Below are positions 3,806 to 42,763 of a DNA stretch of 64,000 bases, piece after piece. The DNA comes from Gammaproteobacteria bacterium (GTDB lineage Bacteria > Pseudomonadota > Gammaproteobacteria > Ga0077536), in contig JACPPA010000025.1 in assembly GCA_016191285.1 (NCBI GenBank), positions 1 to 64,000 of the forward strand, in the 5' to 3' direction. Position numbers and translations under genes: made by a program. The notes beneath the pieces are model-generated. The model saw nothing but the letters and a program-made list of their open reading frames with translations, was not told the origin of the DNA and did no database searches. Position 1 is the first letter of the stretch. Each line of letters opens with the position of its first letter.

Positions 3806-6800
3806 CAGGTCAGCCTCGCTGATTTGTGCATGGCGGCGATTGCCGCGGCAGAGAGTGCGTGGTCGAAAACCGCCGCAGGCCCGATACGTCCCACGAACAC
3901 GGAACTTGGGGTACCGTCTCCAAAAGCCGCAACGGATAATGAGGCAGTCGAATTGACTAAATTATTCAAGAGTGAATTCCCCCAATCGAGAGCGGAGAGC
4001 AGCGCACCGTCGACATAAATTTCGAGAGCGGTTTTGCGCCGCACGCCAACCAGTTGGTGCCAGATACCATCGTTAAATCCGCTACCGGTGGTAAAGCCTA
4101 AGAGCCCGCTGGTGGTGCTCACAGTAATATTTAATTGTCCGGCGCCAGCGGCGGGCGTCCCGAAGTAATATTGCTGTTGGCCAGATTGCCACTTGCCCAA
4201 GATCATGATCGGGTTAGCGGTGGTGTACGACCACTTTGCCCACACCAACAGCGACACATCATGGATCGCATCGAGGGCCGCATTATCCCCGACCGTTGCA
4301 TAGCCGCCGGTGAAATTACACACGCGATGCGTCGTATCGCTCAAGATTGGACTGTCTGCATCGTTAACGGCTTTAGTGCCGGTGAAGGCCCCGTCCAGAT
4401 TATTCAACGATAGATCGTCGGCAACGGTCGTCGAGGTCCAGGAGTAGTTAAACCAAATCGGATTGTGCGCGAGGATAATTTCTCGGAGCGGCCCGAATTG
4501 CGGCGCCGCCGCTGCGCCAATGGCCGCGGCGCCCCGTCCGACGAGCGCGGATTTTTGCGCGACCCGATAATTGATCGCGCTCTGCCAGCCTTGAAAATCC
4601 GCCACTTGTTGTGCAGCCGTATAGGTCGCGGTCGGTACGGTTACGGCTATCGTACGCACCGTGGCGCCCGCGCCGTCGAGAATGTCCACGTCATACGCTT
4701 CTGTTGCTTCTTCCAGCGCAATATCGATCAAATCACCCCACCACCAGCCGATCCGGCCACGGCGTACCCAATTAATTACCCAATCGTTGGTCGCGCGCAC
4801 GGGCGATGCGCCGAGAATGATCGGGCTCCACGGTTGTTGTCGGCGACCAGTATTCGTCACCGATACATTGTCCGCCTCGCTGAGCGCATCGCCGAAGGTT
4901 ACGGCCCGCAGCAAGCGCGGCACGTTAGTTTCAGTTTGCCCGCGATTGATCGAAAATATTTCGGTGCTATTGAGCATGACGAATCGTTCGCCGGCCATCG
5001 AATGCACGAGCGCGTATTCGCTGCCGAGTCTGCCGCGCAAGAATCGCGACAGCGTATAGATGCCGGCGGAGACCAGGGTGGCGCTGCCGAATTGCAATAT
5101 CTCGTCGCCGATGATGCATAGATTGCCACCCGCCAGTAGGGCAGCGTCGGAAATACTTGAAAGCGTCGTGTTTAGCGTAGTTAGCGTTACCGTCACGCTG
5201 TTCAACAAATCGATCTGATGCGGCAGCGACGAAGTGCCGAGGGTCGTGGTGGTATAGCCGATCGTCGCGTCATTAATGATGGTCGCGATATTGTCGAAGG
5301 CCGTCCCGTTGTCCGCGCTAAGTCCGACTTCGCAACCGCGCCAACCAGAGTAGTAGCCACCCGCCCCCAAATAGAATCCCGGGACGTTATCCGCGTCGCG
5401 CAGTGCGGGGATATCGAGAACGACGAGCTTAGTAGGACCCGGCACAGTGAGCGTCTGCGGGATATTTTGATTCGCGTCATTGCCGACGGCGGACGACGCA
5501 TAGAGCGCCTGGAAATCGGCGACTGCCTCAATGTCCAGGCGACCGGAGTCGTGATAATTAGTAGCGACGATACGGGCCAAATCGCCGTTAGGTAGCGTGA
5601 TGATATCGGTCGGTTCTAAATGTAGGTGCCGGCGGGTTGCCGCCAGTTGGTAGCGGGTGCGCTCCGCCCAGACATTCCGCATCAAGACATCGGCCACTTG
5701 CGCGGCTTTGATGCTGCTCATCGAGATCGCGAGATCTACACTGACTTGCTGTTTGCTTCGTGAAGTTAAGCGGCGCGTGCGCTGACTGCCGGGTTGATAA
5801 TCGTTGCCAGTATCCAAGTATTGCAAATTGACCTCGATCGGGAGTTCGGTCTCTTGTTGGCGAGTGGTCTTGAACAGCGCGCTACTGTTATCGCCATCCG
5901 CGCCGAGATCGTCAGCGGTGAACTGTGTCACGCTCGCGCCCCCGCGCTTGACAAATTTCAAGACCCCAGAGGATTCGACGGCGTCAAAAAAGTAACCTTG
6001 CCGCAACGGCTCGATGGCATCGCGCCGCGGCATTTGACGCGGGATTTTGTAGCCATCGATCACATCGGTAAGCGCGCTGGTATTCAGTTGGCCCGCCCCG
6101 AGTCCGGCGCCTTGGCAGATCGCATTGACGACTGTGCCGACTGTGGTGACGGTCGGCGTCACGGGCGGGATCATTGAAATGACGCCCTTGCCCGACGCCA
6201 AAGCGAGCCCACCGCCGAGCGACACGAGCTCGTAAACATTCACGCCCTGATAAGCCGCAACATAGCCTATGTCGGTGGCAACACCGCCGCTCAGCGCATA
6301 GAGATGGGGTGAATGCACGGCGTCGCTTACACCCATGTGCGAGTAACCAAGCAGCTTCCCGTCGTGCACGACGACAGTGTGTAAATCGCCAGTGGGGATT
6401 GAATAAGACGTGACAAAATTGAAATCTAGATCGAACACCAGCACGTTATTGCCGATGGTTTTTGACGGATCAGCGGTCACGTAAATCAATCCGTCATCAC
6501 CTAGACTGAGAATCCCGGCGCTTCCGCTGTAGCCGAACGAGCCGTTAAGCAGTCCGGCGGCCACCAAGTCTAAAAATTTATCGGGGTGCGTCTGCGGAAT
6601 AAAATTAGCGTCGACTGGATAACGCAGGATGCCAGGTTTTTGATCGCCGAGTCCGGTGCCATTCGTGACGAAAATATAACCGCCGGCGTACAAGAAAATG
6701 CCAGCCACCCCGGGCTCGTTGTTCATAAGTGTGGCGAACGGTTTCGGCGTGATTGGTTGTGTCCCGATCACTTTACCGTCCAGCGCCCAATAGACGGGCT

Positions 6801-21301: not shown

Positions 21302-21514
21302 ATGTCTGACCAACTTTCCTCCGTCCGAGATCATCTCGACAAAGCACTCTACGCAGTCTCCGCAATCGAAGCGGTCGCGCAATTGCTGTCCCCCAACGAC
21401 GATCCGCAGAACATCCTGCAACACGTCGATGGCCACGAGCTATCGATCCTGCTCGATGTGCTGACCGAATGCGTGAACGCGCACTTAAGCGCGGCTTATC
21501 GAGATGTGCCATGA
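21302..21514 (+). CDS. Moron protein, 70 aa, unknown function
   Basis: MSDQLSSVRDHLDKALYAVS..., acidic and helical. The plus strand is opposite to every late gene around it. A strong ribosome site AAGGAG lies 7 bases before the ATG, which separates it from the many shadow frames. It is followed after 26 bases by a zinc-motif gene on the same strand and then by a terminator (22242-22267). Independent transcription from a prophage is therefore likely. No family recognised; a lysogenic-conversion or defence-related role is only a guess. Confidence 0.75.
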   Translation: MSDQLSSVRDHLDKALYAVSAIEAVAQLLSPNDDPQNILQHVDGHELSILLDVLTECVNAHLSAAYRDVP

Positions 21515-21540
21515 CTCCGCAAATGCCAGGAGAATCACGA

Positions 21541-22112
21541 TGACCCAAGTATTGGAGACCCCAGATCAGACCGAGCCAATCGAATCAGTGCAAGAGCGCA
21601 AACTCCGATTCCTCAGCGCCGCAAATGCCAAGCGACGAGAGCTAAAAGAGACCGGAGAACTGGAAATCCTTGACCCACTAGAGAAGGCATATCGCGATCC
21701 GACGAGCCTGAAACTCGCTATTCACGCGATGTGCTTCGAATGCTTAGGGCGAGATCACGACCTGAACGTGAAGAACGAGATTGGTTCGTGCGCTGCCTAT
21801 GCGTGCCCCTTATGGGATCTTCGACCATATCAGCACCTGGCTCCGGATGGCCACGGTGCAGAAAAACGCAAGAGCGCCCTGGAAGCGGTCTTAGACGACG
21901 ATGCGACCTTGGCAGCGGCGGCACGGAAACCACTGAGCCGCGCGAAGGCAATGCGCGCCAAGTGTTTCGAGTGCATGGGGGGCAATCGCAAATCGATTGC
22001 CGAATGCGGCAGCGGTTTTGTCGCCGCGAAGCCGCCAATCCCTACGGGACATCTGAAGGGCAAAATGGAGTACCGGGAGTGCCCGTTGTGGCCAGTCCGG
22101 CCAGGGCGATGA
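21541..22112 (+). CDS. Moron protein with two CxxC...CPLW zinc motifs
   Basis: 190 aa from ATG at 21541, with AGGAG 6-7 bases upstream; the longer frame to 21504 overlaps the previous gene. Two copies of the same metal-binding pattern are visible. The first is MCFECLGRD ... IGSCAAYACPLWDLRP and the second KCFECMGGNRKSIAECGSG ... YRECPLWPVRPG. Single copies of CxxC...C...CPLWPxR occur in small uncharacterised phage proteins; here it is duplicated. Probably a nucleic-acid or protein-binding zinc protein. It is part of a two-gene plus-strand cassette with its own terminator. Confidence 0.8.
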
Positions 22113-22830: not shown

Positions 22831-24054
22831 CTACTCCCGTCCCTTCAGCAAAATCCCTTGACGCTGCCGATTCACATAACTGGCATCTGTGGTCGGCAAA
22901 ATCGTCCACGCCTCCAACATGCCGCCCGCCGCATTCGCGACGAACAGTAAAGTGCGGCCACGCCCGATATCGATCCCTTTCACGATGCGGCTGCGCAAGC
23001 GCACCTGGCCGGAGCGCTTGTGCTGTTCGAATGAGAGCCAGACCTCGAACGGATCGGTTAATAACTCATCGATCAAGGTCACGTATTCGGCACGCGCGAG
23101 GTCGACGTGCTGCGCTAAGGTTTCGGCATCCACGAGCACCGGCAGGCCGGCCACGGTATACACTTTTTCCTCGCCGCCGAGCACCGTGCGCAGCGCGCTG
23201 GCCATTGCTGGGCGTGCGGTGGTGCGCTCACCAAGTTGCGCGCGCGGCGCATCGAGTGGAATGGTGGCGGGCCGATTCGCTTCTTGCCACGTGCCCGGCG
23301 TGAGCCGCACCCATTCATCGGCCAGGCCGCGCGCGGCATCCATCGCCGCCTCGCTGAGCGGACGACCCCACGCGGCTTCGCCCACATTGTAAGCCCAGCC
23401 GGGATCGATCCCTTCCGGCACGCGTACCGTGCGCGGGCTGGGGCCGCGAATGCCCACTGTCTTCGTTACATAACGGGTAGGCGGCGCAGTGCCCACCGTC
23501 AATCCTTTGCGGGCGAGCGTTTTCTCTGACTCGGAAACAATGCGGCAGCGGCAGCCCCAACCATTCGGCGGATAATGTACGGACCACCACGGCGAATCAT
23601 GCGGCAGCACCAAGCCGTTCCACGCCAGATGCTCGGGGCGCGGATGCGCGACGAAGTCGCTATGCACATAGCGCCAGTACGGATAGGCCGCTAGAAAATC
23701 CGGATCGGTCATTTGCTTGTAGCGGCCCGCTTGATAGCTGGTGCGAATATTCGTCTCGTAGATCACGCGCGTGCGCCAGCCGCGGCCGCCGTTGTAACTC
23801 CAGCCGTGCTTAGCGACCAGTACATCAAAATCCTTGCGGAAGGTCTCGATGGTCACGCCGTCGGCGATCACCTTATCTATCGCCGTGCGAAGATCTTCGA
23901 GCAGCTCGCTTTTCATCGCGCCGGCGACGACGAAGGCGCGAGCGTGCATGCCCTCCCAGAGGTCGGTCCAGGCGCGCGTCGGCAGATTGAGCTTATCGCG
24001 AAAGAACGCGATCTGCTCGAGGAACGGCAGCGAGCCGTAACTGGCGTTAGGCAT
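22831..24054 (-). CDS. MuF head morphogenesis protein with C-terminal nuclease-toxin-like domain
   Basis: 407 aa. Residues ~50-190 are the MuF domain (VIYETNIRTSYQAGRYKQM, YWRYVHSDFVAHPRPEHLAW, WWSVHYPPNGWGCRCRIVSE). After a linker, residues ~295-407 (EEKVYTVAGLPVLVDAETLA, DPFEVWLSFEQHKRSGQVRL, AWTILPTTDASYVNRQRQGI) have the look of PBECR2, a Barnase/EndoU/ColicinE5-RelE-like nuclease domain known from MuF polymorphic toxins. MuF proteins sit in the head near the portal and can be delivered with DNA. The nuclease call is by pattern only. Confidence 0.82.
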   Translation of the reverse strand: MPNASYGSLPFLEQIAFFRDKLNLPTRAWTDLWEGMHARAFVVAGAMKSELLEDLRTAIDKVIADGVTIETFRKDFDVLVAKHGWSYNGGRGWRTRVIYETNIRTSYQAGRYKQMTDPDFLAAYPYWRYVHSDFVAHPRPEHLAWNGLVLPHDSPWWSVHYPPNGWGCRCRIVSESEKTLARKGLTVGTAPPTRYVTKTVGIRGPSPRTVRVPEGIDPGWAYNVGEAAWGRPLSEAAMDAARGLADEWVRLTPGTWQEANRPATIPLDAPRAQLGERTTARPAMASALRTVLGGEEKVYTVAGLPVLVDAETLAQHVDLARAEYVTLIDELLTDPFEVWLSFEQHKRSGQVRLRSRIVKGIDIGRGRTLLFVANAAGGMLEAWTILPTTDASYVNRQRQGILLKGRE

Positions 24055-24461: not shown

Positions 24462-25937
24462 TCATCGTTTCTGATCAACCTCGAAGCGACCCGCCAAATG
24501 CGCGGCGGCGAGCCCTTCGCGAAATAACCCCGCGAGTTCGGTCGCGTCCATATCGGGGTAGAGGGTGTCGAGGCCATCGCGGATCTCTTGGAGCGAGCTC
24601 GCGGACTGGACCAAGCGCTTCAAGGGCTCCATCAGTTTGTTGAGCGCGGCGTCACTCCGCGCTTCCAGGTTGTCCGCGAATTCATCCGCCGCATCGCGCG
24701 GCGCGCCCTCGGCGAACTGCGGCGGCGAACGATCGTTCGGTAGCGGCACCGCCGGCACCGGCGCGACGTCGGCCTGCTCAATCCAATCCCCTGCATAGGT
24801 CTCTACAACGTGCTGCAAAGTGGGTTTAAAGCCCATTGAAGCAACCTTAACTTCGCGCTCCGCGCGCTGATTTAAGTCCTCGGGCTCTTCGAGCATGCGC
24901 CAGACCTGCGGCAGCGCGGCCGTGGGGTAGTTCCACTGCATTAGCCAGCGCACGACCGTCTGATTGAACGAAGCGCAGACCAGATCCGCATCCGCTTTCA
25001 CCAAGTCCTGACGCACCTCCATATGCACACTGCCGAGCGCACGATTGCCGCCGGCCTGGCCGACTTCGGTGGTCAAGGTTTGGCCGAGGACGACTTTCGA
25101 GATCGCCGCATCCATGCGCATCAAGAGGGTGTTGTAGTCGACCGTGCCGGAGCGCGCGGCTTCAATCAGCTCGATCTGCATGCCTTCCGGCACGATGATC
25201 CCGGCGTCCGTCTGAATCGCGGCGAGCGCTTGTAACAGGCGCGCGCGCTCGGTCGGCCCGGCATTCGGATCGTAGGTGCCCTTCGCCGTCGGCATGCCGA
25301 ACTTGTCCAGAAAGATGAGCCAGAACTTGAGTCCGTTGCGCTTGAAAAACACCGGCCAGTACAGCCAGTGCGCGAGGCCGAGACCATAGGGCTCGTCGTC
25401 ATTATCCGCCCCGGCGCAGAAGTGCCAGAACTTGGCGGGCGGCAGGGCTTCGCCTTGCGGCTGGCTCGCCGTGAGCAAGCGCAGCTCGCCCGCGGGATTA
25501 AACCCGAAGCGCCGTTGCTTGCGGACCTTGATCGCGTCGATCGCAATCGTCGCGCCGTCGCGCACCCACAGCACTTCGGCGACCGCGTAGCCATAGAACA
25601 CGCCAAACAGCATCTTGTCCGTGACGCTGTCCCAGCGAATGGCCGTGAGCTGCTCACGCACAAAGTCGGCGGCCTGTTTATCGATGCGCTTCTCTCCCCC
25701 GGGCAGCACTTCCCATTCGCGCGAGGTGCAGGCCAAGCGCCGTTGCTGGAACGTCGCTTGCACTTGATCGTCGCTCAACACCTGCTCATAGAGCTGATAG
25801 GTGCCGCCGCGGACGCGCAGCACCGAGTCTTGGGGCGGCAATAACGCCAGCGCATCGATAAAGCCGCGCGTGATGTCGCGGCCATTCGCGATCGTCGCAA
25901 TTTCGCGGATGTCGGGTTTCGCAGGGGTGTCAGTCAT
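24462..25937 (-). CDS. Portal protein (DUF935, Mu gp29-like)
   Basis: 491 aa. Family markers are TYQLYEQVLSDDQVQATFQQ, RRLACTSREWEVLPGG, LFGVFYGYAVAEVLWVRDGA, YWPVFFKRNGLKFWLIFLDK and the signature SKVVLGQTLTTEVGQAGG with NRALGSVHMEVRQDLVKADA. This is the DUF935 portal, the dodecameric DNA gate of the head. It lies 10 bases after the Acb2-like gene and upstream of MuF, in the standard order. Confidence 0.95.
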   Translation of the reverse strand: MTDTPAKPDIREIATIANGRDITRGFIDALALLPPQDSVLRVRGGTYQLYEQVLSDDQVQATFQQRRLACTSREWEVLPGGEKRIDKQAADFVREQLTAIRWDSVTDKMLFGVFYGYAVAEVLWVRDGATIAIDAIKVRKQRRFGFNPAGELRLLTASQPQGEALPPAKFWHFCAGADNDDEPYGLGLAHWLYWPVFFKRNGLKFWLIFLDKFGMPTAKGTYDPNAGPTERARLLQALAAIQTDAGIIVPEGMQIELIEAARSGTVDYNTLLMRMDAAISKVVLGQTLTTEVGQAGGNRALGSVHMEVRQDLVKADADLVCASFNQTVVRWLMQWNYPTAALPQVWRMLEEPEDLNQRAEREVKVASMGFKPTLQHVVETYAGDWIEQADVAPVPAVPLPNDRSPPQFAEGAPRDAADEFADNLEARSDAALNKLMEPLKRLVQSASSLQEIRDGLDTLYPDMDATELAGLFREGLAAAHLAGRFEVDQKR

Positions 25938-25947
25938 CTTGATTGGC

Positions 25948-26163
25948 CTAGAAGAAATCGGGTTTCGCGACGCCCCGCGTCAAGGCCATGAAGCCTTTTT
26001 GCAAGTCGGTCTGTGCGATTGAGACCCAGCGCTTGTCGGTGTCGGGATGATCGAATGCTTCCTGCACCAGATAGCCTACTCTCAGCGCGAGTTCTTTAAT
26101 CCGATTGATGCGCACGATCTCGCCATCGGTCAACGTTCGGTAGCCTTTGATGGGTGTATTCAT
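25948..26163 (-). CDS. Acb2/Tad1-type hairpin protein (candidate cyclic-nucleotide sponge)
   Basis: 71 aa: MNTPIKGYRTLTDGEIVRIN, IKELALRVGYLVQEAF, then DKRWVSIAQTDLQKGFMALT and RGVAKPDFF. The spaced pattern with RWxxIAxTxLQxGFMALxR and a final P..F is the hallmark, as I remember it, of the Acb2/Tad1 hairpin family. Members bind CBASS (and some Thoeris) cyclic signals and block defence. It sits between large terminase and portal, overlapping the terminase stop by 4 bases. Family call is strong; ligand is unknown. Confidence 0.82.
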   Translation of the reverse strand: MNTPIKGYRTLTDGEIVRINRIKELALRVGYLVQEAFDHPDTDKRWVSIAQTDLQKGFMALTRGVAKPDFF

Positions 26164-27797
26164 TGGAATCCCGCGAAATTATTGCCGCCGGCGACCGTGC
26201 CGAAACCAACCTCGGTCCGCCGTGGCGTGACGGCGAAGTGATCGACCAGGCTGGTGGATTCGCGCCGGCCGGTGGATTCGAATTCGATCGGCGCGAATTT
26301 GATGGTGCGTAACGCGAACACCGCGAGCGCCGCCGCGACCGCACTGTCGCCGTGGCGATCATAGCCATCCGCGCCGCGATAACGCGCGTTATCGGGGACT
26401 TTGGCGATGCCGCGTTCTTTCTTGATCGAGCGCAAGTCGGCCATCACATCCGCATCGCGCGGGATCTCGATCGTGCGATCCTCGAACGCGGCTTTAAACG
26501 GCGGCATATGCTCGCGATACCACTCTTGCGACAGCATCACTTGCGCGATGCGTGGCGCGCCGAACGCTTGCATCGTCGCCTCGGCTAGATATTGGCCATT
26601 GCCGCGTGCGTCGAGCGCGCCGCCGCTGAAGCGCGGCAGCCGGCGGATCACGTAGTGCAGGATTTCGCGCTGCTGGTCGAAGGGGATATTGCGGAGCTCA
26701 ATCACAAACGGCGTGACGTAGCGCAGCCCTGGCATCTCGGAGAGCACCCAGATCACCGACACGTCACCCGAGCGCGCAAAGTCGCTCCCGAAGTAATGCC
26801 TGAGCGCAGTCGGTAATGATTCCAACACTGGCGCCAAGGTCGTGCAGAAGTCGCCGGCGTCGGCCTCGCGAATATGGCGCGGCTGCTCGGCAAATCGCGC
26901 TGGCTGCTGCCAGCGCACGACTGGGATTAGGTCGTTCATACAGGTTTCGATGAGCGCGCGCGATAGGAACGTGCCTTCGCCGCTCGACGGGACGACATCC
27001 AGCTCTTCCGCCGCCGCGTCGCCGTAGAACGCATAGACCTCTTCAATCCAGGCGCTTTGCTCTGCTGCCGACCACGGTTTGTTCAAGCGCAGACAGACGC
27101 GCCGATAGAGTCCCTCGGCGACCGCTTCGCGAAATTCGAGGCGGTGCAGGCTATACGGACGCTTGCCCGCGCGGCAGTCGGTGACGAGTTCGTTGAATGG
27201 ATTGGTCTCGCCATCGTGCGTGCTGATGATGCGGACCTTGCCACCCCAGATCAGCAGCGCCATTGCCGCTTTGAGCAGCTCCGGCAAATCATTGTGGAAC
27301 GCGGCTTCGTCAATCACGACGACGCCTTGCTTGCCGCGCAGATTCGAGGGGCGCGAACTTAAGGCGGTGATCCGGAAGCCTGAATCGAAGCGAATGATGA
27401 AGGTGCGGATCTGTTTGTCTTCATCCTGCAGCACGTCTTCCTCAATCTCGCTTGCCGCGCGTTGATAGGCGCGTGCCCACATGCCGCAGGCGTCGATGAA
27501 TTCCTTGGCCATGTCGAGGCTATAGCCGATGTACCACACATTTTGCCCGCCGGCCTGGCGGTTCGACGCGGCGATCATCGTATCGTCCGAGGCTTCGGCC
27601 CAGGTCAGTCCGGTGCGACGTGATTTTTCGCAGACCTTCACGTTGGCATTGTCGGCAATCCAGCGCTGCTGATAAGGAAGCAAAACCGCCGGAGTGTCGG
27701 CGGTCGTGGTCGAGGGAAGCTTGGTCGGTACGCCGGTCATAAGCGAACCAAGCGTGATAACCAGGTCATGAATCGTTGAAACTTCGATTTTCGGCAA
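26160..27797 (-). CDS. Terminase large subunit (Mu gp28-like)
   Basis: 545 aa. Walker A-like EKSRRTGLTW at ~57-66, Walker B VVVIDEAAF at ~159-167, followed by the coupling motif region IISTHDGETNPF, and a nuclease domain beginning YFGSDFARSGDVSVIWVLSE. This is the packaging ATPase/nuclease of the Mu gp28 type, which fills heads from integrated copies. The start could be ATG at 27797 or an internal one near residue 20; there is no clear ribosome site. Confidence 0.93.
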   Translation of the reverse strand: MPKIEVSTIHDLVITLGSLMTGVPTKLPSTTTADTPAVLLPYQQRWIADNANVKVCEKSRRTGLTWAEASDDTMIAASNRQAGGQNVWYIGYSLDMAKEFIDACGMWARAYQRAASEIEEDVLQDEDKQIRTFIIRFDSGFRITALSSRPSNLRGKQGVVVIDEAAFHNDLPELLKAAMALLIWGGKVRIISTHDGETNPFNELVTDCRAGKRPYSLHRLEFREAVAEGLYRRVCLRLNKPWSAAEQSAWIEEVYAFYGDAAAEELDVVPSSGEGTFLSRALIETCMNDLIPVVRWQQPARFAEQPRHIREADAGDFCTTLAPVLESLPTALRHYFGSDFARSGDVSVIWVLSEMPGLRYVTPFVIELRNIPFDQQREILHYVIRRLPRFSGGALDARGNGQYLAEATMQAFGAPRIAQVMLSQEWYREHMPPFKAAFEDRTIEIPRDADVMADLRSIKKERGIAKVPDNARYRGADGYDRHGDSAVAAALAVFALRTIKFAPIEFESTGRRESTSLVDHFAVTPRRTEVGFGTVAGGNNFAGFQ

Positions 27798-28125: not shown

Positions 28126-28460
28126 GCGTCGGTCACTTCGCCATTGCGGACGAAGCCATGCCATAGACAGCCGCCAGTCAATTGAATGGACGACGAACCC
28201 GCAATCAAAGATAGATCGTCGATACCCGTGCCCGTCAGCGACCATCGTCCAGGTCCGGGCTGCAGATGTTCCGGCACTTGGGGCGACCAACAGATGATCC
28301 CGTGTGTTCCCATCGCGCCGCCGTTAGCCGTAAAACATCTCGGGCATAGGAACCTGACGCCGTCGGCGTCTGCTATCTCATCAACGTGATTCCAGCTATA
28401 GCGATCGTCGCCGCGCGGCTGAAGCTTAATAAAATACGGGGACAGTTCGGTCAATTTCAT
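28122..28460 (-). CDS. DUF6527-like protein
   Basis: 112 aa: MKLTELSPYFIKLQPRGDDR, then FLCPRCFTANGGAMGTHGII, CWSPQVP, PGPGRWSLTGTGIDDLSLIA and SSIQLTGGCLWHGFVRNGEV. The pattern CPxCF...GTHxxICW...PGPGRW...SSIQLxGGCxWHGF is that of the DUF6527 family found in phages and mobile elements. Two cysteines and a histidine could bind metal. Function unknown. It lies between the small and large terminase genes and overlaps both neighbours by 4 bases. Confidence 0.78.
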   Translation of the reverse strand: MKLTELSPYFIKLQPRGDDRYSWNHVDEIADADGVRFLCPRCFTANGGAMGTHGIICWSPQVPEHLQPGPGRWSLTGTGIDDLSLIAGSSSIQLTGGCLWHGFVRNGEVTDA

Positions 28461-28996
28461 GCCGCGACCCCCAGGATCTCGCGCCGGATATCGGCCGCCG
28501 TTTCGGCCGAGAGCCCGGTACGCTTGGCGACCTGAGTCGCCGCATCGGCGGCCTTTTGCGTCACCTCTTTACGGATCCGCAAATCGCGCTCTAAGTTCGT
28601 TCGTTCGGCTTTTGAAGCGTGGTCGAGCGCTTTCGCAAGCAACATCATTTCCATCGGATTGACGGGATCTTCGGCCTCGCGGTTATTGATGTCGGAGAGC
28701 ACCTTGAACGCGAGCGTCGACAGCAACTGAATATTCAACTGCGCGACATCGCCGCCCGGTTGTTCTTCGATACGCTTGGCCCACACCGAGGCGATTTCCT
28801 GCGCCCGGCGATAGGTCTCCATTTGCTCGCGAGCTGTGCGCGCGTAACGCGTGACGGCGCTCGCGCTCACCTGCGCGCCCATACCGTTCACGATTTCAAC
28901 GATCTGCTCGGCCGATGCGCGCCCTTCGCGGATCGCGCGATCCACCGCCTCGCGGATTTCGGGCGCAAGTTGCGAGATGGAAGACTTACGACCCAC
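28457..28996 (-). CDS. Terminase small subunit (DUF3486, Mu gp27-like)
   Basis: 179 aa: MGRKSSISQLAPEIREAVDR, ASAEQIVEIVNGMGAQVSAS, AVTRYARTAREQM, then a long helical part and TQKAADAATQVAKRTGLSAE. This is the DUF3486 family (Mu gp27), with an N-terminal helix-turn-helix for recognising the packaging site. It stands one base after the winged-helix gene at 28997, in Mu order. Confidence 0.93.
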   Translation of the reverse strand: MGRKSSISQLAPEIREAVDRAIREGRASAEQIVEIVNGMGAQVSASAVTRYARTAREQMETYRRAQEIASVWAKRIEEQPGGDVAQLNIQLLSTLAFKVLSDINNREAEDPVNPMEMMLLAKALDHASKAERTNLERDLRIRKEVTQKAADAATQVAKRTGLSAETAADIRREILGVAA

Positions 28997-30936: not shown

Positions 30937-31335
30937 CTAGAACAGGGATTGTTGAGTTTGTCCGACGTGCGGGCGCACCGCGACGATTTGATAAATGCGA
31001 GTCTCGGTGATCCCATAGGCACGGGCAAGGGTGCGCGCCGTTTCGCCCTCGTCATAGCGCGCGCGGACCGCTTGATCGCGCGCCGAGCGCAATGCCGCGG
31101 CGCATTTCGGAATCATCAAGTGATCGAGCGCATAGCGGCCGACGAGGGTTTTCGCGGCAGTGACACCAATGACTTTAGCGAGCGGATGCTGCGGCTGATA
31201 TTGCTCGGGGATCCAAACGCGCGTGCCGCCATAGGCGTCAACGAGTGCCAGCGCCGCGTTCAAGCCAATGCATTCCGTCAGCTCGCGTACGCTGCCCGGC
31301 AATTGATCGAGATCGAGCGCGGTCTCAAGCGCCAC
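30937..31335 (-). CDS. Mor/C-family late transcription activator
   Basis: 132 aa: LPGSVRELTECIGLNAALAL, VDAYGGTRVWIPEQYQPQHP, LAKVIGVTAAKTLVGRYALD, then the helix-turn-helix EGETARTLARAYGITETRIY. This is the Mor transcription activator family (Mu Mor and C). It switches on late genes in the lytic cycle. Only one such gene is seen here where Mu has two, so it may do both jobs. Confidence 0.92.
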   Translation of the reverse strand: MALETALDLDQLPGSVRELTECIGLNAALALVDAYGGTRVWIPEQYQPQHPLAKVIGVTAAKTLVGRYALDHLMIPKCAAALRSARDQAVRARYDEGETARTLARAYGITETRIYQIVAVRPHVGQTQQSLF

Positions 31336-42068: not shown

Positions 42069-42213
42069 GGCTCCCTGCGATTGGCGACAAACCGCCGAAG
42101 TCTCCCAAAATCCATGTGATCCGACGATTCCACGTTATTGCGGGCGAACTTCGGCCTTTATTGTTCTATCCCAGCTGTATCTCATTGAAAAACAAAGTAA
42201 TGAAATTCGTCAG

Positions 42214-42265
42214 CCATTCTTAACCAACTCCCGCCAGTATTCGCCACAAGATATTGAATCATCTG
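42214..42265. repeat. Transposase end-binding sites, early end
   Basis: Read inward from the terminus on the minus strand, CAGATGATTCAATATCT (42265-42249) matches 11 of 17 bases of the late-end repeat and starts at the same distance (10 bases) from the tip. A second partial match, GAGTTGGTTAAGAATGG (42230-42214), shares 10 of 17. These are probable L1 and L2 sites. The rest of 42069-42213 holds no supported gene. Confidence 0.55.
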
Positions 42266-42275
42266 TCTCATCACA

Positions 42276-42280
42276 AGAAT
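42276..42280. repeat. 5-bp target site duplication AGAAT (early-end side)
   Basis: AGAAT directly follows the prophage end ...TCATCACA and equals 2584-2588. Together they prove a transposition event with a 5-bp stagger. Confidence 0.95.
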
Positions 42281-42763
42281 CTCCTCGTTTCGCGGCATTG
42301 GCCAGGCGCGCCAGGCGCGGTAGAACGGGGTGAATACGGTATACGGGCCGCCCTGCTTACGTTGAATCCATGCCGGGTGGTGCACCGTTACGCCGTCGGT
42401 CAATGTCAGCGGAAGCACGGTTTGCACAGCGGCATCACGCCGACGGGCGTAGGGGCTGAAATCCTCGACGGCATAGATCGCCGTCGCACCACTCTCTGCA
42501 ACTAAACTGCCGAGCACGATGACCGGCTCTCCGCTGCGCACGATCAGACGCGAACCCATACTTCGCAGCGCACGATCGAGAGACCGAAGACCTGCCAACA
42601 GAAACTCACGCCGACGGATCGCGGCGCGATGCCAGCGCGCGTTTAGGATTGCGGGATCCAAGATAAATAAGGGAATTACCGCGCCATGCGCGAGCGCGGC
42701 GTGCAACGCTGGATTGTCGTGCAGACGCAAGTCACGTCGTATCCACCAGATTGCGCTATTCAC
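42276..42763 (-). pseudogene. phrB: Photolyase N-terminal half (antenna domain), ending in prophage DNA
   Basis: MNSAIWWIRRDLRLHDNPAL, then SRLIVRSGEPVIVLGSLVAE, IYAVEDFSPYARRRDAAV and GGPYTVFTPFYRAWRAWPMP are the alpha/beta antenna domain of class I photolyases. Start is GTG at 42763. The host part ends at residue ~163; the frame then runs 31 codons into the prophage (VMRQMIQYLVANTG...) to a stop at 42182. The catalytic FAD half is at 1665-2583. A truncated 193-aa chimeric protein may be made in the lysogen. Confidence 0.95.

Follow-up and report, generated by a model that had tools for sequence, protein, structure and literature searches.

A short-hairpin Acb2 homologue lies between the terminase and portal genes of a Mu/B3-like prophage

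We identified an acb2 homologue encoding 71 aa (25948-26163, minus strand) that belongs to the late operon of a B3/Mu-like prophage. The prophage is carried on a 64,000-nucleotide stretch, hereafter the window, from a Gammaproteobacteria bacterium (Ga0077536; GCA_016191285.1, contig JACPPA010000025.1, positions 1-64,000). Our preferred reading, to which we assign a probability of roughly 0.88, is that the gene is cargo of this phage and that its product would act as a hexameric hairpin sponge against the CBASS signals of the host. The protein is a real but ordinary further member of the described Acb2 family, and the finding leaves the known Acb2 mechanism unchanged. What it adds is a short-hairpin Acb2, so far uncharacterised, from a temperate, transposable phage that is complete, together with the observation that acb2 occupies two different late positions within one phage group.

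The earlier note had placed an open reading frame in the gap between the terminase and portal genes, and the frame is found exactly there; it starts with ATG and, as also claimed, overlaps the large terminase gene by 4 bp (ATGA at 26160-26163). The large terminase subunit (26160-27797, minus strand, 545 aa) is recognized by phrog_2 (E 3.5e-38), while a Pfam search with the same frame gave no match. On the other side, the portal frame begins 10 bp past the acb2 stop and encodes a Mu-type portal protein of 491 aa (24462-25937, minus strand; PF06074, 379.8 bits; phrog_113). The order of transcription runs from the small terminase subunit of the Mu gp27 family (28457-28996, minus strand; PF11985, phrog_426) through a 112-aa frame, the large terminase, acb2 and the Mu portal to a Mu F-like protein, and a Mor-type transcription activator (30937-31335, minus strand; PF08765) lies upstream of these late genes. 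The G+C content of acb2 is 53.7%, compared with 61-63% in the four neighbours measured. Among the head genes, we also observed a PBECR2 nuclease-type domain (PF18810, 68.1 bits, cut-off 27.1) at the C-terminus of the Mu F-like head protein (22831-24054, minus strand); several relatives align to this protein only across approximately residues 1-230. A cysteine-rich 202-aa frame (21504-22112, plus strand) runs opposite to the late genes, had no Pfam or PHROG match, and is possibly an extra cargo gene.

The surrounding element is a complete Mu/B3-like transposable prophage of 39,687 bp (2589-42275). Its TG...CA ends are the single solution in the two stretches scanned, and they are bordered by a 5-bp target duplication (AGAAT at 2584-2588 and 42276-42280). 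The prophage encodes a transposase (PF09299), a TniB-type AAA ATPase, GemA and Mor, and its portal shares 52% identity with the portal of phage B3. When the flanks are joined, they form one frame of 469 codons whose sole stop is terminal and whose C-terminal half contains a photolyase FAD domain. The insertion site is a photolyase-like host gene, the pieces of which (1665-2546 and 42182-42763, minus strand) still join in frame.

Sequence comparisons confirm that the match of the 71-aa protein to the Acb2/Tad1 family is far above chance. The family profile search that the earlier note had proposed returned PF24729 ("Acb2/Tad1, hairpin domain") at 60.4 bits (E 1.9e-16, profile positions 1-58 of 58), against a curated cut-off of 27 bits. 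The protein also matches PHROG 717 (E 9.6e-17), the group to which Vs.4 homologues are assigned in the portion of Jenson et al. consulted (PMC10097602). A search of PDB sequences found the Acb2 chains 8ixz/8h2j, named p26 there, at E 1.2e-11 and T4 Vs.4 (7uq2) at E 0.011; in our alignment A2, the PaMx43 protein is 42% and T4 Vs.4 is 30% identical to the 71-aa protein. Relatives were detected by tblastn in 229 of 50,697 phage records (E <= 0.01), with a top identity of 62.7%. Of the relatives in other phages and genomes, 10 were submitted to Pfam, and all exceeded the PF24729 cut-off. The scan of genome contigs found one relative, a low bacterial count that arises because the query was the single 71-aa protein rather than an alignment. 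As a side observation, Acb2-like frames in the Pseudomonas phages SS2019XII (NC_074749), phiB1_1, MR5, D14F (BK061479) and CF118c are labelled "NAD/FAD-utilizing enzyme", which is probably wrong.

We then consider the predicted fold. An AlphaFold monomer prediction, made from an input alignment of 13 rows, has a mean pLDDT of 89.2 and a pTM of 0.72, and consists of helices at residues 13-38 and 44-66 with no beta strand anywhere in the 71-aa model. Residues 1-4 fall below a pLDDT of 50, and the model does not show the short helix that Acb2 has at its N-terminus. In a Foldseek search against the PDB, ranks 1 to 9 are all Acb2 (8h2x, 8h2j) and Vs.4 (7uq2) chains, with modest E-values (1.3e-4 to 5.0e-3); rank 10 has an E-value of 2.2, so only Acb2/Vs.4 chains lie below E 2. 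The best VIA-align matches are 7uq2_A (Z 8.2, rmsd 2.8, 71 residues aligned) and 8h2j_A (Z 8.1, rmsd 2.1, 70 aligned), although a Z of about 8 falls where helical hairpins match by chance (the tool itself warns of a common arrangement) and carries little weight alone; the Acb2 and Vs.4 chains span Z 7.7-8.2, and the first unrelated helical chain reaches Z 6.8. Altogether, the structure check agrees with the hairpin of solved Acb2 and, with PF24729 and PHROG 717, bears out the Acb2-family identity put forward in the earlier note.

The same searches bear on the possibility that the protein is a Tad1-type sponge, which would bind gcADPR and counter Thoeris. The PF24729 model spans both the Acb2 and the Tad1 hairpins, and Tad1 chains appear among the VIA-align matches (8kbd, Z 5.2; 7uav, Z 5.1; 8kbc, Z 4.9). 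However, Tad1, as described in the excerpts consulted, has an antiparallel beta-sheet at its N-terminus, ahead of its two helices (PMC12043709), whereas the window protein is 71 aa long and is modelled as helices alone; the two have the Pfam hairpin model in common. In addition, the Acb2/Vs.4 chains score higher in VIA-align and are the sole Foldseek matches below E 2, and ThsB_TIR (Thoeris) had no match in the own host genome under a working control (matched in 1 of 14). Given the fold without a strand, the small size and the missing ThsB_TIR, we rejected this reading as extremely improbable, and the Thoeris part of the earlier proposal is left unsupported. Because its model contains no beta strand, the 71-aa protein is, at the level of predicted structure, Acb2-like rather than Tad1-like.

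The ligand pocket is kept in part. In T4 Vs.4, the reported cGAMP contacts are Y8, H11, K23, R79 and F82 (PMC10097602, in the part consulted). In alignment A2, Y8, K23 and R79 of T4 correspond to Y8, K23 and R63 of the window protein and to Y11, K26 and R85 of PaMx43, and these three residues are invariant in all 13 rows of alignment A1 and all 11 rows of A2. H11 and F82 of T4 are replaced by L11 and A66 in the window protein and by L14 and A88 in PaMx43. R45 of the window protein aligns with R67 of PaMx43, which is reported to contact trinucleotides; in the primary Acb2 papers, Y11, K26 and R67 of the PaMx33 protein were reportedly mutated. The motif from which the earlier note had argued is likewise present, at residues 45-63 together with P68 and F71. 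By alignment, the T4-type interface is kept only partly, since L29, F33 and A77 of T4 are V29, V33 and L61 in the window protein; the small interface residues A66 and A73 of T4 correspond to A50 and G57.

Comparison with known relatives places the protein among the short members of the family. With the Acb2 proteins of the Pseudomonas phages PaMx33, PaMx41 and PaMx43 (8h2j, 8h2x, 8ixz), it shares the hairpin fold and the Y/K/R pocket residues, the Leu and Ala at the positions of T4 His11 and Phe82, a terminal Phe, and a GRW/KRW-xxIxxTDxQ segment. PaMx43 is among the phages reported to be naturally anti-CBASS, and its long gp24 is reported as Acb2 in the excerpts of PMC12043709. The PaMx43 protein has 93 aa and a long inter-helix insertion that the window protein lacks, and its gene adjoins replication-type genes, whereas the window gene lies between terminase and portal. 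T4 Vs.4 (7uq2) shares the fold, Y8, K23, R63/R79 and T12, but it is only 30% identical, differs at H11 and F82, and has a longer loop; the vs.4 gene sits amid early-type accessory genes, unlike the window acb2. Short homologues also occur in MQM1 and in jumbo phages, among them Kaldavass and Munch (62.7%, 59.7% and 58.2% identity), and are annotated just as hypothetical proteins. Those of MQM1 and Kaldavass are 74-aa hairpins that, like the window protein, have no long loop, but their genes lie outside the packaging cluster.

The Acb2 copies of JBD67, Ps60 and Lsp-JY19 belong to the same kind of phage, the same Pfam family and the late structural region, and the portals of these phages are 50% (Ps60/JBD67) and 59% (Lsp-JY19) identical to the window portal. 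In these phages, however, acb2 lies two genes past the capsid gene rather than at the terminase-portal junction. The Ps60/JBD67 Acb2 is 108 aa long and groups with PaMx43 (99/93 support), and the Ps60 copy is 28.3% identical to the window protein by tblastn. The Acb2 of JBD67 has reportedly been studied in the primary papers.

To place the junction in context, we surveyed 26 loci with portal relatives (23 from viral contigs and 3 from a search of 274 genomes in the class, not counting the own genome). The TerL-portal distance, measured between the stop of the terminase and the position in the portal matching residue 1, could be computed for the 20 loci in which both genes are visible. It is at most 56 bp in 19 of these 20 (zero or below in 12), versus 222 bp in the window. 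The exception is a related viral contig (L032) with a distance of 247 bp, where a 70-aa frame (4223-4435, plus strand) fills the junction, reaches 10 bp into the terminase, and had no match in a PHROG search. None of the 26 loci, most of which end before passing the capsid gene, yielded a copy with an 11-row Acb2 model. Terminase and portal are adjacent in all six annotated B3-like phages viewed; in three of them (Ps60, JBD67 and Lsp-JY19) acb2 lies two genes past the capsid gene or past the gene in the corresponding position, and in B3, YPCBV-1 and Bhz63 the same model found no copy within the stretch viewed.

These positions bear on a second alternative, namely that the sponge fold has been repurposed, for example as a small accessory protein of the head or of packaging with the same hairpin. 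Such a role would fit a gene whose neighbours are terminase and portal and whose start overlaps the terminase frame, and relatives in Ab9, a Thiohalocapsa phage, PB119, Ps60, JBD67 and Lsp-JY19 also lie in head clusters. However, the ligand residues Y8, K23 and R63 are retained, and the relatives in PaMx43, MQM1, Kaldavass and T4 lie outside the head genes. Moreover, the gene is absent from the junction in all 20 relatives with both neighbours visible, and it is therefore unneeded for packaging there. We consider a repurposed accessory very unlikely.

By our preferred reading, acb2 instead looks like exchangeable cargo, because three B3-like phages hold it elsewhere, after the capsid gene. Taken together, the junction distances, the positions in B3-like phages and the G+C content suggest that the gene was taken up as cargo at a second site. 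In a tree built from 21 Acb2 proteins, 11 of 17 inner branches are open and 2 are starred, and the window protein is left unplaced. The four B3-like copies require three label changes on this tree, at least two of them forced by starred branches. Since 79 of 500 label shuffles are equally low, the tree favours separate acquisition only weakly. A more speculative and rather unlikely extension is that small counter-defence cargo enters B3-like phages at the terminase-portal junction, in which case the 70-aa frame of L032 might be another inhibitor and short-hairpin Acb2 might bind different cyclic nucleotides from the tested long-loop forms.

Acb2 is described as hexameric, with three cGAMP molecules bound in each hexamer (PMC10097602, PMC12043709, PMC10419184, each in part), and a review, in its consulted part, adds that two trinucleotides are bound at the ends of the channel and that Acb2 acts in induction, not lysogeny. 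Given the family, the hairpin fold, the pocket residues, the operon position and the complete prophage, we infer a similar course here. The protein would be made along with packaging and head proteins during lytic growth, and such late expression agrees with the position of its gene among the late packaging and head genes downstream of the Mor-type activator. It would fold as a two-helix hairpin and then assemble into a hexamer, which may bind cyclic di- and probably trinucleotides from host CBASS cyclases. Protection would follow if CBASS effectors were thereby kept off until phage assembly. Acb2 also has a cost, as excerpts of one report describe how the Panoptes system is triggered by it (PMC12657218). 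The short protein enables a small test, namely whether binding of di- as well as trinucleotides is preserved in the shortest hairpins.

Finally, we searched 58 genomes with family profiles. In the own host genome, SMODS (the CBASS cyclase) had no match (control matched in 3 of 14, two over the cut-off), nor did AGS_C (control matched in 1 of 14); a search for SAVED was uninformative, its control having matched nowhere. Because SMODS, AGS_C and ThsB_TIR all lack a match, there is no direct indication in the host genome of the defence that would be countered. With SMODS over the cut-off in just 2 of the 58 genomes, the suggested encounter of the phage with CBASS in its hosts found no support, and the phage may face this defence in other hosts. 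The three negative searches with working controls would also suit a decayed, functionless acb2 remnant. However, the domain is full length, the frame is intact, its start is translationally coupled, and the protein keeps every residue that is invariant across the 12 other rows of A1, which makes decay highly improbable. PF24729 itself was found in 2 of the 58 genomes, the own genome and that of a member of its family (G020), and the latter has a SMODS match below the cut-off. The G020 protein (locus L014, 1474-1668, plus strand) is 64 aa long, scores 67.8 bits, and is encoded behind a 351-aa frame that resembles a coat protein by eye.
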